DNA of 40,916 nucleotides, taken from the NCBI GenBank assembly GCA_016207645.1, contig JACQPH010000121.1, positions 1-40,916 of the forward strand, given 5' to 3'. A program made the translations under genes and the position numbers. Shown here in pieces: positions 2,340 to 30,246 of the stretch. Source of the DNA: Elusimicrobiota bacterium (GTDB lineage: Bacteria; Elusimicrobiota; Elusimicrobia; Elusimicrobiales; UBA9959). The notes below the pieces were generated by a model that saw only the letters and a list, made by a program, of their open reading frames with translations, made no database searches and was not told the DNA's origin. Positions within the stretch are counted from its first letter, which is position 1, and every line of letters starts with the position of its first letter.

Positions 2340-3596
2340 CTACGCTTTCACGCGCGACGCGTCCACTCCCAGGTCTTTGAGCTTGTGCTCCAGCTTCTCG
2401 TAGCCGCGGTCGATGTGGTAGATGCGGCGGATGACGGACCTGCCTTTGGCCGAGGCCGCCGCCACCACCATGGCGGCGCCGGCGCGGATATCCGAGGCCA
2501 TCACCGGAGCGCCCAGCAGCTGCGGCACGCCGCGTATCACCGCCTTCCTGTCCAGGATGGTGATATCGGCCCCCATGCGGACCAGTTCCGGGGCGTGCAT
2601 ATAGCGGTTCTCGAAGATCTGCTCCTGCACTTCGCAGGCGCCGTTGGCGCGGGCCATGAAGGACATCCAGGGGGCCTGGAGGTCAGTCGGGAAACCGGGA
2701 TGCGGCTTCGTCACTATGCTCACCGGCCTGGGCCTGCCCGGAGGCGCTATGATCTCCATCGAATCCCTGAAAGCGTTTATCTTCACGCCGGCTTTTTCCA
2801 TGGCGCGGATCAGGGCGCCCAGCGTTTTAGGGGCGGTGTTCAGCAGCTTTATCCTGCCGCCGGCGGCGGCACACAACAGCATGAAGGTGCCGGTCTCCAC
2901 GCGGTCGGGCATGACGGTATGCCTGAGGCCTTTGAGCCTGGCGGCGCCGGTTATCCTTATTACCGGGCTGCCGGCGCCGGTGACGGAGGCGCCCATTTTG
3001 CAGAGGGCCTCGGCGAGGTCCTCTATCTCCGGCTCCCGGGCGCAGTTCTCCAGGGTGGTAGTGCCCTCAATCAGGGCGGCGCACATCAGCAGGTTCTCGG
3101 TGGCGCCGACGCTGGGGAAGCGGAACTTCACTTTTCCCGGCTTCAGCTTTTTGGCCGAAAGTATGACGTCGCCTTTTTCATAGGCCACCTGGGCGCCCAG
3201 TTTTTTGAAGCCTTCCAGGTGTATGTCTATGGGCCGCATGCCGATGGAGCAGCCGCCGGGCAGGGAGAAGCGGACTTTTTTAAAGCGTGCGAGGAGGGGG
3301 CCGGCCACCAGCACGGAGGCGCGCATCTTGCGGACCAGGTCGTAGGGGGCGTGGAGCTTCAGCGCGGCGTGTTCCTCGGCCACGAAATTCCCGTAGCCGT
3401 AGAAGCAGTTCTTGCCCAGGTAGTTGAGCAGTTCGAAAGTGGACTTTATATCCATCAGCTCCGGGACGTTCTTGAGCTCGCATTTTTCCCTGGTGAGCAG
3501 GGTGGCGGTGAGGATGGGCAGCGCGGCGTTCTTGGAACCGCTGATCATGGTCTGCCCGCTGAGGGGCCTGCCGCCGCGAATTATTAAATTATCCAT
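2340..3596 (-). CDS. murA: UDP-N-acetylglucosamine 1-carboxyvinyltransferase
   Basis: MurA transfers enolpyruvate from PEP to UDP-GlcNAc, the first committed step of peptidoglycan precursor synthesis, in the cytoplasm. The 418-residue protein has the expected two-fold EPSP-synthase-like layout. Lys22-Asn23 of the active site are in SGSKNAALP, and the reactive loop SLPGGCSIGMRPIDIH carries Cys116, equivalent to E. coli Cys115. This Cys form is the fosfomycin-sensitive type. TDLQAPWMSFMARANG near residue 285 is the conserved TDLQ segment. The ATG is preceded by AGAGGT, which lies in the end of the upstream nuclease gene, so the two genes are nearly fused (3-base gap) and probably translationally coupled. 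Confidence 0.96.
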   Translation of the reverse strand: MDNLIIRGGRPLSGQTMISGSKNAALPILTATLLTREKCELKNVPELMDIKSTFELLNYLGKNCFYGYGNFVAEEHAALKLHAPYDLVRKMRASVLVAGPLLARFKKVRFSLPGGCSIGMRPIDIHLEGFKKLGAQVAYEKGDVILSAKKLKPGKVKFRFPSVGATENLLMCAALIEGTTTLENCAREPEIEDLAEALCKMGASVTGAGSPVIRITGAARLKGLRHTVMPDRVETGTFMLLCAAAGGRIKLLNTAPKTLGALIRAMEKAGVKINAFRDSMEIIAPPGRPRPVSIVTKPHPGFPTDLQAPWMSFMARANGACEVQEQIFENRYMHAPELVRMGADITILDRKAVIRGVPQLLGAPVMASDIRAGAAMVVAAASAKGRSVIRRIYHIDRGYEKLEHKLKDLGVDASRVKA

Positions 3597-3599
3597 AGT

Positions 3600-4823
3600 T
3601 TACCTCTGTGTGCCGGGCCATTTCGCGCCTGCCTTGCGCGGCACGTCCAGCTCCCTTACTTCGCGCCGCAGTTCTGTCCGCAGTTCGGCCTCGCTCGGGA
3701 GCTGAAGCCTGTAGCGGCTGGCGAATATGCTTTTATTCTTTTTATCCAGCACATACTTAACCACGGCGTCGTTCTTGTCCGCGCAGAGTATCAGTCCTAT
3801 TGTCGGATTGTCCTTGTGGCCGGCTATTTCACGGTCATAGTAATTCACATACATCTGCATCTGTCCAAGGTCGCCATGGGTCAGTTTCTTCACTTTAAGA
3901 TCAATGATGACATAGCACTTCAGCAGGATGTGGTAAAAGACCAGATCCGGGTAAAAATGGTCGCCGTCCAGCGTCAGGCGTTTCTGCCGCCCTACAAAAG
4001 CGAAGCCCTTGCCCATCTCCAGAAGGAAGGCCTGCAGGTTGTTGATCATCGCCTGCTCCATTTCCGTTTCCACCAGCTTCGGCGATTCCGGCAGGCCCAA
4101 AAATTCCATAACCACAGGATCTTTGAAGACATCGGCGGGCGCATGTACGGTCTGGCCCTTCGTTGCGAGCCGCATTAGGCCTTTCTTGTCCCTGCTCAGC
4201 GCGAGCCGCTCATAGAGCAGGCTGTTGATCTGCCGCTCCAACTCGCGCGCCGCCCAATTGTTCTTTATAGCTTCAATCTCATAAAAGGCCCGGATATCGG
4301 CCCTGTCCACGCGCAACAGCGTACGATAATGCGTCCAGGATAAATTGGGGTGTAATCGTCCCGGTCGCCAGGATTCTCCACGCGCCGCGTGGAGAATCCT
4401 GGAAACATCTGTTGGCGCTACGCCGGACGATTCGCCACGTGGCGCGCCGCCTTTCTTAAAACTGCCCACTTGCGGTCTGCCGCCGGCTTCCGCGGTCGTC
4501 AATTCTCCACGCAGTGCGTGGAGAATCGCTCCCGTCGTAATCAATTCGGGGTATGTCCGATAAAACTGGACCATATAAAACAGGTTCTGCACCGAATAAC
4601 CCGCCCCATAATCCCCTGTCATCTTCCGGGAGAGCCCCTCGATCAATTTCTTGCCATAGTCAGCCCTCGCCTGACCCTTTTTTTCCTCTTCCACTATCTC
4701 CAGCCCAATACGCCAGTTCGCCGCAACCTGGACTGTATTAACAGAGCGGGCTGCGCCAGCACGGGCGGACTCAAGAATCCCGCGAACACGTTCGTAAAGC
4801 GACAATAATTTGTGTTGTTTCAT
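3600..4823 (-). CDS. DUF1016 / YhcG-type PDDEXK nuclease family protein
   Basis: This protein has a DUF1016 N-terminal domain (about residues 5-110, YERVRGILESAR to FYMVQFYRTYP) and a C-terminal PDDEXK-like nuclease domain. In the latter, YPDLVFYH and YVIIDLKV supply the Asp and the E/DxK-type residues, followed by LTHGDLGQMQMYVNYYD. Family members are often near restriction or mobile loci; the cellular role is not established. The chosen start gives 407 residues; an in-frame GTG at 4877 has no ribosome site. Residues about 110-175, between the two domains, are abnormal: two short palindromes are translated there as ILHALRGE and ILHAARGE (see repeats at 4368 and 4502). Codon and base use is clearly more AT-rich than the neighbouring murA and prmC, suggesting acquisition. 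It sits 3 bases before murA. Confidence 0.85.
   Translation of the reverse strand: MKQHKLLSLYERVRGILESARAGAARSVNTVQVAANWRIGLEIVEEEKKGQARADYGKKLIEGLSRKMTGDYGAGYSVQNLFYMVQFYRTYPELITTGAILHALRGELTTAEAGGRPQVGSFKKGGAPRGESSGVAPTDVSRILHAARGESWRPGRLHPNLSWTHYRTLLRVDRADIRAFYEIEAIKNNWAARELERQINSLLYERLALSRDKKGLMRLATKGQTVHAPADVFKDPVVMEFLGLPESPKLVETEMEQAMINNLQAFLLEMGKGFAFVGRQKRLTLDGDHFYPDLVFYHILLKCYVIIDLKVKKLTHGDLGQMQMYVNYYDREIAGHKDNPTIGLILCADKNDAVVKYVLDKKNKSIFASRYRLQLPSEAELRTELRREVRELDVPRKAGAKWPGTQR
4368..4402. repeat. Near-perfect 35-bp palindrome inside the DUF1016 coding region
   Basis: Two 17-base arms (left 4368-4384, right 4386-4402) are exact reverse complements around a single centre base. The core ATTCTCCACGCG is shared with the second palindrome at 4502-4526. 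On the minus strand it is read in frame and encodes ILHAARGE plus flanking residues, so it is a protein-coding palindromic element. Confidence 0.9.
4502..4526. repeat. Second palindrome of the same type inside the DUF1016 gene
   Basis: The arms ATTCTCCACGC (4502-4512) and GCGTGGAGAAT (4516-4526) are exact reverse complements around a 3-base loop. Translated on the minus strand it gives ILHALRGE, a near copy of the peptide from the palindrome at 4368-4402. A smaller palindrome, CGCCACGTGGCG, lies between the two, near 4433-4444. Confidence 0.88.
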
Positions 4824-28221: not shown

Positions 28222-28590
28222 ATGGGCAACAAAATCCTCGTAGTTGATGACGACCCGGAGATCTCCAGCCTCGTCCAGTACACGCTGGAATCGCTCGGCC
28301 ACACCGTGAAGGTCTGCGACAACGGCCGCGAAGTGATGGATATGCTGAAGTCCTACAAGCCGGAGCTGCTGGTGCTGGACGTAATGCTCCCCGGCATAGA
28401 CGGCTACTCGCTGGCCACCCAGATCTCCGAGGACGAGGAGCTGGCCAAGCTGCCCATAGTGGTGCTCTCCGCGCTCGAACCCTCCCGCACGATGTTCCAG
28501 CGCTTCTCCCAGGTAGCCGCCTTCCTCACCAAACCCTTCAACACCGACGACCTGATGGAAGCCGTCAAGAACGGCCTCGCGAAGAAATAA
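28222..28590 (+). CDS. Single-domain response regulator
   Basis: This 122-residue receiver domain has Asp9-Asp11 (VDDD), phospho-acceptor Asp53 in LLVLDVMLPGIDG, Ser83 in VVLSALEP, and Lys104 in FLTKPFNTDD. It has no output domain, like CheY or Spo0F. A terminator follows directly, so the gene appears to be a single-gene unit. It differs in sequence from the receiver at 16844-17227. No cognate kinase is present in the window. Confidence 0.92.
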   Translation: MGNKILVVDDDPEISSLVQYTLESLGHTVKVCDNGREVMDMLKSYKPELLVLDVMLPGIDGYSLATQISEDEELAKLPIVVLSALEPSRTMFQRFSQVAAFLTKPFNTDDLMEAVKNGLAKK

Positions 28591-28607
28591 CAAGCCCCGG
28601 CCTTAAC

Positions 28608-28639
28608 AAAAAAGGGAAGCCCAAAAGCTTCCCTTTTTT
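28608..28639. terminator. Bidirectional Rho-independent terminator
   Basis: The stem GGGAAGC/GCTTCCC (28614-28620 with 28627-28633) is flanked by six A and six T. The symmetry lets it end transcription of the response regulator and also stop incoming minus-strand transcripts. Confidence 0.9.
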
Positions 28640-28668
28640 ATTGGCGGGGATAAGACCGCGAGATGCGA

Positions 28669-28808
28669 AGTCGGAGCGGCAAGGGGATGGGTTCGGAGCG
28701 ACCTCTCGGAGGCCGACGCTTGCGTAAGCGCGGAGGCCGAGAGAGGAGGGCCGAGCACGGTGTGCGAGAGCCCGTGAGCGACGGGCCCATACCCTTGCCG
28801 CTCCGACT
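28669..28808. repeat. 140-bp multi-stem inverted repeat element
   Basis: The outer 23-base arms (28669-28691 and 28786-28808) are reverse complements with one mismatch. The inside holds further perfect stems: CTCTCGG/CCGAGAG with CGCTT/AAGCG inside it, GCAC/GTGC, and GCCCGT/ACGGGC. The whole would fold as a branched cruciform or RNA. No gene is supported. It lies between a terminator and the small-RNA promoter. Confidence 0.8.
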
Positions 28809-28870
28809 GGGCACCTTACAGCCCGACACCCAAAGCTATTTTAAACATTTAAGTGAGTTGAAGCGGGCTA

Positions 28871-28899
28871 TTGACGGGATTTAGGGGCTCTGGTATACT
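28871..28899 (+). promoter_or_regulatory. Strong sigma70-type promoter for a small RNA
   Basis: TTGACG (28871-28876), a 17-base spacer and TATACT (28894-28899) are present with no open reading frame behind them. The predicted start is 28906-28907, exactly where the closing stem of the RNA begins. Confidence 0.8.
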
Positions 28900-28906
28900 A
28901 TTTAAT

Positions 28907-29011
28907 GAAGAGCGGTAAGCCCGTTGCAGGTCGTTCCATGGTGTTCCCTTCCATCGTGTGGGCCATAGCCTGGACATTTTAGCCTGCGCGGCACGCTCTT
29001 CCTCATTTTTT
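28907..29011 (+). ncRNA. Candidate ~105-nt structured small RNA
   Basis: The 5' end GAAGAGCG (28907-28914) pairs perfectly with CGCTCTTC (28994-29001), after which comes CTCA and six T (29006-29011). Inside, CCGTTGCAGG (28921 region) pairs with CCTGCGCGG (28983 region) as nine pairs with one bulged U. A more weakly paired top holds ATGG/CCAT. A well-placed promoter precedes it. The layout (closing stem, bulges, terminal hairpin, T-run) is that of an independent small RNA. It lacks the SRP RNA signature GGAAG...AGCAG and is too short for tmRNA or RNase P. A short 6S-like RNA is possible but unproven. It runs convergently into the DUF3800 gene. Confidence 0.65.
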
Positions 29012-29655
29012 CAGGGTAAATATAACCGATCGACCTTTACGTGCGTTTTAAAGACGTCGTACCAGGCATGATCGCCATTCTCATATTTCCGTGAAATTCC
29101 CCAGGCGAACATATCCGCGGCCTGAAGGCCGGGGCGTTCCTGTGAAAGGGCGTGGTAGATCTCCAAAGGCACGACCGGGTCGATAAAAGATTTTATCTGG
29201 CTTATTATGTACTCGTTAAAGCCAAGGATTTCATGCCTGGATTTGCTTTTGTCCACCGTGATTATCACCCTTACGGCCGCGTCCTTAAATTCCACGCGTT
29301 CAAGCGTCAGCCTGGCGATAAAGTTGTAAATGCGTTCTTTATCCTGGGAGAGCGCTTCATAGACTTTCTTCTTGTTCAAAGTAACAGCGTATAGTTTAAA
29401 ACCGGTCCGGCAGACTTTTTGGTAGAAGAATTTTTTTATTGCCAGCGTAGTGTCGCCGCCTTTAAGCTCGGCGCAATTCTTTTTTGATCGCCGCCTGAGT
29501 TTTCTGCCGATAACCGCGCGCACGGAATTAGTCAGTGCGCGGTCGTTTTCGCGGCCTTTGATCGCCAGGACGCAGATGGTGAAGAACGCGCTTGGCTTTT
29601 TGTTTACGAAATCGAAGCCGAGGTCGCCGCTTTCATCCAGGTAAAGATAGAGCAT
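29011..29655 (-). CDS. DUF3800 domain-containing protein
   Basis: The 214-residue protein starts MLYLYLDESGDLGF, the DUF3800 hallmark with Asp7, Glu8 and Asp11, and ends with QAADMFAWGISRKYENGD, the second conserved acidic site. The fold is thought to be RNase H-like; the function is not established, and members are common in mobile or defence-linked regions. A good GGGGG ribosome site lies just before the ATG. Its stop codon sits in the T-run of the small RNA on the other strand, so the two transcripts converge. Lower GC than the surroundings suggests acquisition. Confidence 0.85.
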   Translation of the reverse strand: MLYLYLDESGDLGFDFVNKKPSAFFTICVLAIKGRENDRALTNSVRAVIGRKLRRRSKKNCAELKGGDTTLAIKKFFYQKVCRTGFKLYAVTLNKKKVYEALSQDKERIYNFIARLTLERVEFKDAAVRVIITVDKSKSRHEILGFNEYIISQIKSFIDPVVPLEIYHALSQERPGLQAADMFAWGISRKYENGDHAWYDVFKTHVKVDRLYLP

Positions 29656-29743
29656 AAGCCCCCCTTGTTATGCCAATAGCATAGCAGGCGAAGCCGACAA
29701 CTGCTTGTCGGGTTGCAGGCGGAGCGTTTGTGTATTTTTACTG

Positions 29744-29863
29744 CTATTTATTTAGGGGGCAGGCTTCCTGGCAGAGGTCGCAGCCGTAGGCGTAACCCTG
29801 GGTTTTGGCAGCCAGGGAGGACGGAAGCTTTTCTTTGGAGAGGCAGAGGGCGGGGTCGGGAAA
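29744..29863 (-). pseudogene. queG: Fragment of queG (epoxyqueuosine reductase), C-terminal part
   Basis: The 39 codons before a TAG encode a stretch ending GYAYGCDLCQEACPLNK, which matches the second 4Fe-4S cluster motif of QueG (GCDxCQxxCPxNK). Nothing upstream continues the protein; the reading stops at a repeat motif at 29861-29882. The last ten codons encode the same peptide as the queG end at 40878-40916, and 20 bases are identical between the two sites. It is probably a duplicated or relocated scrap rather than a working gene. Confidence 0.7.
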
Positions 29864-29882
29864 TAGGGGACAGCGACCTATT
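29861..29882. repeat. Half copy of the GGGGACAG repeat family
   Basis: AATAGG (29862-29867) and CCTATT (29877-29882) flank GGACAGCGA, which resembles the left arm of the repeat at 4890-4959. It marks the 5' boundary of the queG fragment and lies just past the stop of the HicB-like gene. Confidence 0.6.
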
Positions 29883-29892
29883 ACGCTTAGCT

Positions 29893-30246
29893 TTACATAC
29901 CTTTGCCGAAGGGGTGGAGCTGGGCTCGGGCGGTGGAGATCAGGTAGAGGGCGTATTGGTTTACCGAGACGCCTTCTTCCAGGGCCTCTTCTTTCAAATC
30001 GGATTGCAGCGCCTTCGGGATCCGGAGCAGGAAACGGCCGCCCAGTTTCTGGCCGGCCAGGGCCTGCGGGATCGGGAGCTTGTTTTCTTTCCTTATGCGG
30101 AGATGCAGTTTGATAGCGGCGTCAAGTTCCGTTAACGCCCCGGTATCGGTATCGCCCAAAGCGGAGCAGCCCGGTATTTCCGGGGCGACGGCGACCCAGC
30201 ATTTATCCTCGGCGCTGTAAAAGACTTTTGGGGTGCAAGGTGACAC
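29893..30246 (-). CDS. Orphan HicB-like antitoxin family protein
   Basis: The 117-residue frame has a HicB-type domain (about 8-50, VFYSAEDKCWVAVAPEIPGC, then LDAAIKLHL) followed by a ribbon-helix-helix (70-108, GGRFLLRIPKALQSDLKEEALEEGVSVNQYALYLIS) expected to bind DNA as a dimer. HicB normally neutralises the HicA RNase; no hicA gene is present next to it. The only start is a GTG at 30246 that lies inside the right-hand palindrome (30237-30281), and the usual first residues of HicB are missing. The 5' end seems to have been replaced by the repeat, so expression is uncertain. Confidence 0.6.
   Translation of the reverse strand: MSPCTPKVFYSAEDKCWVAVAPEIPGCSALGDTDTGALTELDAAIKLHLRIRKENKLPIPQALAGQKLGGRFLLRIPKALQSDLKEEALEEGVSVNQYALYLISTARAQLHPFGKGM

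Follow-up and report, generated by a model that had tools for sequence, protein, structure and literature searches.

The window analysed here, a stretch of 40,916 nucleotides from an Elusimicrobiota bacterium, holds at 28871-29011 what looks like a short transcription unit, and the question it raises is what RNA is made there and what that RNA does. The original prediction had described a promoter, a closed fold and a terminator with no ORF, and its outer elements held. A sigma-70-type promoter lies on the plus strand at 28871-28899 (TTGACG at 28871-28876, a 17-nt spacer and TATACT at 28894-28899, with a TG preceding the -10) and scored 10/12 in a promoter scan. The two arms said to pair perfectly ca. 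80 bases apart, GAAGAGCG (28907-28914) and CGCTCTTC (28994-29001), do form a perfect inverted repeat, with an interval of 79 nt, and the T-run expected behind them is present as six T at 29006-29011. Promoter-like sites in the region 28590-29900 number 3, against 0.8 (sd 0.9) in shuffled sequences. It is their recurrence that sets promoter, repeat and T-run apart from chance: each of the 25 RNAs found in the window's own genome and related ones (a set of 150 genomes) has a promoter scoring 10-12/12, and the stems covary. A simple terminator scan of 28590-29900 did not report the RNA 3' end; it is limited to loops of 3-8 nt, and the stem here closes a long hairpin. Two details did not hold. The interior, described as a second stem of nine pairs, is one long interrupted hairpin, and the statement that there is no ORF had overlooked a frame of 214 amino acids on the opposite strand (29011-29655), the stop codon of which occupies 29011-29013, so that the T-run touches this gene. 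The sequence, and the conservation of the unit in relatives, support a putative small-RNA gene that comprises a promoter, a closed fold and a terminator.

The view that this RNA belongs to no recognised family was mistaken. A search with Rfam/Infernal covariance models, as had been recommended, returned a known family, the DUF3800-V RNA (RF02964), at 28905-29003, with 49.3 bits against a curated gathering cut-off of 37.4 and end to end (model positions 1-96 of 96). With the T-run, the RNA extends from 28905 to 29011 of the plus strand. RF02964 was the sole Rfam family reported across the window at the gathering threshold, and there was no match to 6S RNA, which had been suggested as a possible identity. 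A few of the RF02964 consensus pairs are non-standard in the window copy, which scored 97.5 bits against our own covariance model (the 25 rows of which include this copy). It is a further member of a known family without an explained function; the portions of the literature mentioning DUF3800 that were accessible gave no account of what the DUF3800 RNAs do, though the RNAs have been catalogued. We regard both the identity of the stretch and its pairing as close to certain: it holds a DUF3800-V RNA gene to which a DUF3800 gene is coupled tail-to-tail. The same genome (2.8 Mb, 167 contigs) has a second RNA copy, which lies on contig C123 next to the C-terminal fragment of a DUF3800 gene. At this second place (L002, 513-1517) a 204-aa ORF that looks like an NYN/PIN-type nuclease precedes the C-terminal DUF3800 part.

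The perfect repeat forms the closing helix of the RNA. Inside it follow an unpaired GUAAG (28915-28919), the UAAG letters of which are 90-100% conserved (weighted, 84 RNAs), a second helix (28921-28930 with 28983-28991, mapped from alignment columns), a third helix (28933-28942 with 28968-28975) and a GUUCCC segment (28943-28949; first five letters 76-100% conserved, same weighting and RNAs) that runs up to a short helix at the apex (28948-28949 with 28960-28961). The RNA strand folds at -36.5 kcal/mol (z -2.6), a value that 3/200 shuffles equalled. Loss of the pairing in relatives without compensation had been named as the outcome that would speak against the prediction, and what we found was compensation. 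The two alignments contain related rows and had been fitted to the model, a step that favours the fold: with 29 RNAs, 97.3% of the cells pair and 23/26 pairs show two-sided changes, and with 85 rows the figures are 92.0% and 25/26. For the smaller alignment 0/500 shuffles reached the observed values, and versions in which it was slid dropped to 24-47% paired. In the larger one the outer three closing pairs are kept in just 67% of the cells, and the third pair of the adjacent helix in 30/85 rows; one of its rows, a palindrome echo (L090, plus strand), was left out of the 84-RNA counts of letters and promoters. A guide RNA was considered and rejected, as the variation is largely compensated helix change and no segment is hypervariable.

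The RNA is patchily distributed. It was found in 17 of the 150 genomes (the window's own included), at 25 places and with 16 genomes over the cut-off, and in 22/340 genomes of the phylum, at 30 places and with 20 genomes over the cut-off. Sixteen of the 25 RNAs are convergent with a full-length or near-full-length DUF3800 ORF (in G002 with an altered end), 5 lie beside a truncated DUF3800 remnant and 4 have no detectable DUF3800 alongside (L035, L038 twice, L042). In other families of the phylum the same convergent layout is seen at L073, L075 and L076, and the RNA at L074 has no adjoining DUF3800. We also approached the unit from the protein alone, keeping the best 80 of 228 relatives and adding one viral contig. 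The RNA lay tail-to-tail at the DUF3800 stop in 80 of these 81 loci, with gaps of -20 to +116 nt, mostly -7 to +26 (at L131, where the DUF3800 frame is split, measured from the C-terminal piece). It was not found at L092, which is near a contig end, and the match at L111 is weak (E 0.016). Thirteen of the 81 loci were taken as belonging to the window's phylum, and 66 of the other 68 reach the Rfam cut-off. Among the best 80 of 228, record titles name Omnitrophota, Nitrospirae, Nitrospinota, Planctomycetes, Patescibacteria groups, Deltaproteobacteria, Actinomycetota, Verrucomicrobia, Lentisphaerae, Armatimonadetes, WOR-1 and others.

These counts bear on the earlier suggestion of a general regulatory or 6S-like RNA that works independently of the adjoining gene. 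The RNA does have its own promoter, and the four relatives' copies without detectable DUF3800 would suit such a role; however, with the coupling seen throughout the protein-found loci, the patchy occurrence and the lack of a 6S match in the window, we find it scarcely credible. The coupling has a limit of its own. Within the phylum, 19 of the 20 full-length proteins of the subfamily (at least 205 of 216 positions and at least 221 bits, a cut set after the scores had been seen) have the RNA alongside, and it was not found beside any of the six diverged full-length DUF3800 proteins (95-122 bits). Five of these six are in genomes without any RNA match, and the sixth is in the window's own genome (G000, contig C159), where the gene ends ca. 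70 nt from the contig edge and an RNA could not show. The coupling therefore appears to be confined to one DUF3800 subfamily, as bounded by that cut. Distances between RNAs and between proteins are correlated (r 0.51, 0/1000 permutations as high), which we read as joint inheritance only.

Five of the 7 matching plasmid records were examined; one (L168) carries the unit, and the other four, more diverged, are without RNA. Carriage by phages was considered and set aside: no phage record matched at E 1e-5, and the viral contig (L167) among the 81 protein-found loci is a single case. Other catalogued RNAs were seen close by at a few loci. An int-alpA RNA (RF02996) follows directly past the DUF3800-V RNA at L143 (3777-3844) and L144 (3637-3704), an Acido-Lenti-1 RNA match lies near the unit in a Calditrichaceae record (L128, 1261-1306), and a 2dG-II purine riboswitch (L035, 11232-11302, minus strand) lies near an RNA-only locus.

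The partner of the RNA matches PF12686 with an E value of 6e-13 and 50.2 bits (Pfam gathering cut-off 21). AlphaFold2, run with 16 family members, gave a best model with a mean pLDDT of 86.4 (the other four average 70-76), for which the top Foldseek match was RNase HII (E 1.4e-6, TM 0.58). A sequence search of solved structures with the DUF3800 protein gave a single match, at E 0.077. The first sixteen residues are invariant in the 16 family proteins, together with D7, E8, E63, D135 and D181, which are candidate RNase HII active-site residues; the protein of L123 is without an aspartate equivalent to D181. Going by the predicted model, the DUF3800 protein would be an RNase-HII-like metal-dependent nuclease. 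An RNase H fold with a catalytic rearrangement has been reported before for DUF3800 (PMC10910872).

Is the unit a fixed part of this genome? The stretch 28643-29747, which comprises palindromic repeats and the RNA-DUF3800 unit, is bounded by flanks common to relatives. Nine relatives' regions have the window's left flank; seven of them resume at the right flank without the unit (at the empty sites of L187, L189 and L193 there are 28-43 nt between the flank matches), and in the other two no right flank was seen. No RNA was found when ten relatives' regions were searched with the RNA model, and two of these relatives, G026 and G010, carry the unit elsewhere. Units may also stand in tandem, four in G016 and two in G028. 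One reading of such a pattern is that the hairpin serves chiefly for DNA recombination of a gene cassette, in the manner of an integron attC, and that its transcription is secondary. A single gene with a 3' hairpin, the tandem arrays, the differing places of the unit and the two RNAs that flank other genes at L038 could all be understood in this way. However, a sigma-70 promoter of at least 10/12 was present in 52/84 RNA copies compared with ca. 2% of shuffles, TTGACA was exact in 44/84, and the best -10 lay within 0-4 nt of the model start in 63/84; there is also the T-run at the RNA 3' end, and no target-site duplication was seen by eye around the unit. We consider a recombination site very improbable.

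Several observations concern the surroundings of these units. In the window, the tract between the upstream terminator and the RNA promoter (28678-28838) is rich in palindromic repeats, parts of which match repeats at the equivalent site in L190 and L192. On the other side, 29748-29839 matches sequence found after the response regulator in seven relatives; since nothing past 29839 is matched, the region right of the unit seems to have undergone another rearrangement, the match ending at or before that position. The four tandem units of G016 (contig C62; L029, 7713-11874) are 1.0-1.4 kb apart and mutually diverged, and the fourth protein is fragmented. At L038 (7045-9653) two RNAs of the same orientation flank other genes, no DUF3800 being found; these genes look like ORF6N and AbiEi/AbiEii. 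The gene set of L042 is similar, with one RNA.

The expression signals of the two genes are unequal. Over 79 units, promoters on the RNA side had a mean score of 9.8/12 (shuffled 7.4) and the 60 nt before DUF3800 one of 7.4/12 (shuffled 7.2); that is, the RNA promoter is near consensus and the region before DUF3800 scores like shuffles. At the RNA 3' end the best 8-base window has 6-8 T in 69/79 units. At the far end of the RNA gene, on the DUF3800 strand, it has 3-5 T in 63/79 and 6-7 T in 6, and a two-way terminator was rejected on these counts. For the 74 units with enough sequence, a crude terminator detector, run without a shuffled control, placed a terminator-like site after the DUF3800 stop but ahead of the RNA gene in 1, at the far end of the RNA gene in 4, only beyond it in 21 and nowhere within 500 nt in 48. 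With a single such case in 74, the DUF3800 message probably extends across the RNA gene. In the window it may end at a symmetric terminator-like hairpin (28608-28639) that follows the response-regulator gene, beyond the RNA gene.

A message of this extent would make room for a pure type I antisense RNA, whose sole action would be to anneal to the DUF3800 mRNA in its 3' part. The strong RNA promoter fits with this, and so does the layout, which is like that of the Bacillus pairs txpA/RatA, bsrG/SR4 and yonT/SR6, where pairing is reported to be at the 3' ends (PMC6562991). However, the fold and the unpaired letters are conserved across phylum-level names, and antisense pairing does not demand this because any change in the RNA gene is automatically matched in the opposite strand. 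The conservation of the fold and of UAAG, which antisense action cannot explain, implies a conserved partner, and the co-inherited protein is the simplest candidate. A product that is a nuclease-like protein of 214 amino acids also tells against the antisense reading, as does the lack of specific pairing between the RNA and the start region of DUF3800, and we regard it as distinctly unlikely. Antisense to the start region itself was rejected: the mean rank of an RNA paired with the DUF3800 of its own unit is 37 of 79, near the chance value, though the mean energy of such pairs is slightly lower than that of other pairs (-29.2 vs -27.5).

What happens when one partner is lost? In the subfamily, the RNA is without a full-length partner in 10/29 cases (11/30 if G150, partial and below the cut-off, is included) and the full-length protein is without RNA in 1/20 (Fisher, p 0.017), these being counts taken over related loci; when the 6 diverged full-length proteins are counted the latter figure becomes 7/26 (p 0.57) and the contrast is gone. 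The nine partnerless RNAs among close relatives keep their promoters, and their median score is 97.0 bits vs 100.1 in the 16 paired ones (p 0.36) on a model built from those same RNAs. Two broken DUF3800 genes are without RNA (G003, G020). An excess of RNA-only loci is the pattern expected of an antitoxin, and as such it gives a weak indication of one; the RNA-only copies could also be recent losses.

On its Pfam matches the neighbourhood of the window's unit is not an evident defence island. The 8 genes scanned (23.5-35.3 kb) comprise a response regulator, HicB, cell-wall, FecR, BatA/VWA, DUF4159 and unmatched genes, of which HicB is the sole hint of defence. This HicB-family gene (29893-30246) adjoins the unit. 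Elsewhere, 81 of 120 listed neighbour proteins, mostly longer ones chosen for the purpose, gave 5 matches to N6_Mtase, 4 to HsdM_N, 4 to Methylase_S, 3 to Eco57I and 2 to a Cas10 domain, as raw counts without a background set among 112 families in all, many of them ordinary genes. At L097 and L150 the unit sits, by eye, between methylase-like and specificity-like genes. One scanned neighbour matches a Mu-type portal protein; our guess is that it is the ORF at 3203-4756 of the viral contig L167.

Our preferred reading, held tentatively and with a little less than even confidence, is that the folded RNA binds and restrains the RNase-HII-like nuclease within a horizontally exchanged toxin-antitoxin-like or defence unit. 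The nuclease, when free, would be harmful or used in phage defence. The strongly transcribed RNA would bind it through the near-invariant unpaired UAAG and the GUUCC-like segment and keep it inactive, and loss or disturbance of the RNA would release it. The DUF3800 message probably spans the RNA gene, and a second layer of control could therefore come from pairing between the RNA and the 3' portion of that message. We count in favour of restraint the RF02964 match, the 80/81 coupling, the compensated fold, the promoter asymmetry, the RNase HII match, the RNA-only excess (10/29 vs 1/20) and the type I restriction genes among neighbours; against it we count the post hoc subfamily cut, the breaks in G003 and G020, the D181 gap in L123 and the few defence genes near the window's unit.

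Most of these traces would be expected of an activating RNA as well. In that case the RNA would be a cofactor or scaffold, and it would make up with DUF3800 an active ribonucleoprotein that works as an effector against invading nucleic acid by cutting it. Conserved fold and letters, an RNA beside 19/20 full-length subfamily proteins in the phylum, an RNase-H-like predicted fold and restriction and Cas10-like neighbours are all compatible with it, and in two studies DUF3800 nucleases are accessory genes at some CRISPR V-A2 and VI-F loci (PMC10910872, PMC12669027). However, a hypervariable guide-like segment is lacking, and activation explains less well why promoter-intact RNAs persist where the protein is broken or gone, and we consider it somewhat unlikely. 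Returning to restraint, the unit as a whole might be a toxin or abortive-defence module that is widespread, moves horizontally and has its RNase-HII-like protein neutralised by RNA, a kind of RNA antitoxin system outside type I and type III, sometimes inside type I restriction-modification operons, and genomes with the RNA only may resist incoming copies; this wider picture is possible, and we hold it with more reserve than restraint itself. For an RNA family without explanation, the coupling, the RNase-HII-like partner, the unequal promoters and the RNA-only loci provide a testable two-component hypothesis, and restraint, if true, would widen the known range of RNA-controlled nucleases.

How does the unit compare with known systems? 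With the DUF3800-V RNA family (RF02964) the window copy shares a full-length match over the cut-off, the consensus fold, the conserved letters and a nearby DUF3800 gene, and we found no difference in kind. The CRISPR V-A2 and VI-F accessory nucleases are likewise RNase-H-fold DUF3800 proteins adjoining RNA-based systems (PMC10910872, PMC12669027); unlike those loci, the unit has a dedicated small RNA and no Cas gene among the 8 scanned window genes. In the Bacillus type I pairs, the antitoxin RNA overlaps the toxin message at the 3' end (PMC6562991), and SR6 is described as an RNA of ca. 100 nt. The convergent layout of our unit, with 73/74 units lacking a terminator-like site before the RNA gene by the crude detector, may allow an antisense arrangement; in contrast, a 214-aa nuclease-like DUF3800 protein stands in place of the small hydrophobic toxin that is usual, if not universal, in type I, and the conservation of fold and unpaired letters extends over phylum-level names. 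Eight of the 16 family members match the PADLOC model DUF3800_VII, a name that we take to refer to type VII retrons. The DUF3800 domain is common to both; a type VII retron is defined by a reverse transcriptase gene with its RNA, and the 8 window genes around the unit (Pfam, 23.5-35.3 kb) include no reverse transcriptase. In type III toxin-antitoxin systems (ToxIN-like) a structured RNA restrains a nuclease, as we propose here by binding. Type III is defined by a repeat-containing antitoxin RNA upstream of the toxin gene in one operon, whereas the RNA of the window is a single hairpin, convergent with and downstream of its partner, and the protein is predicted to be RNase-HII-like.
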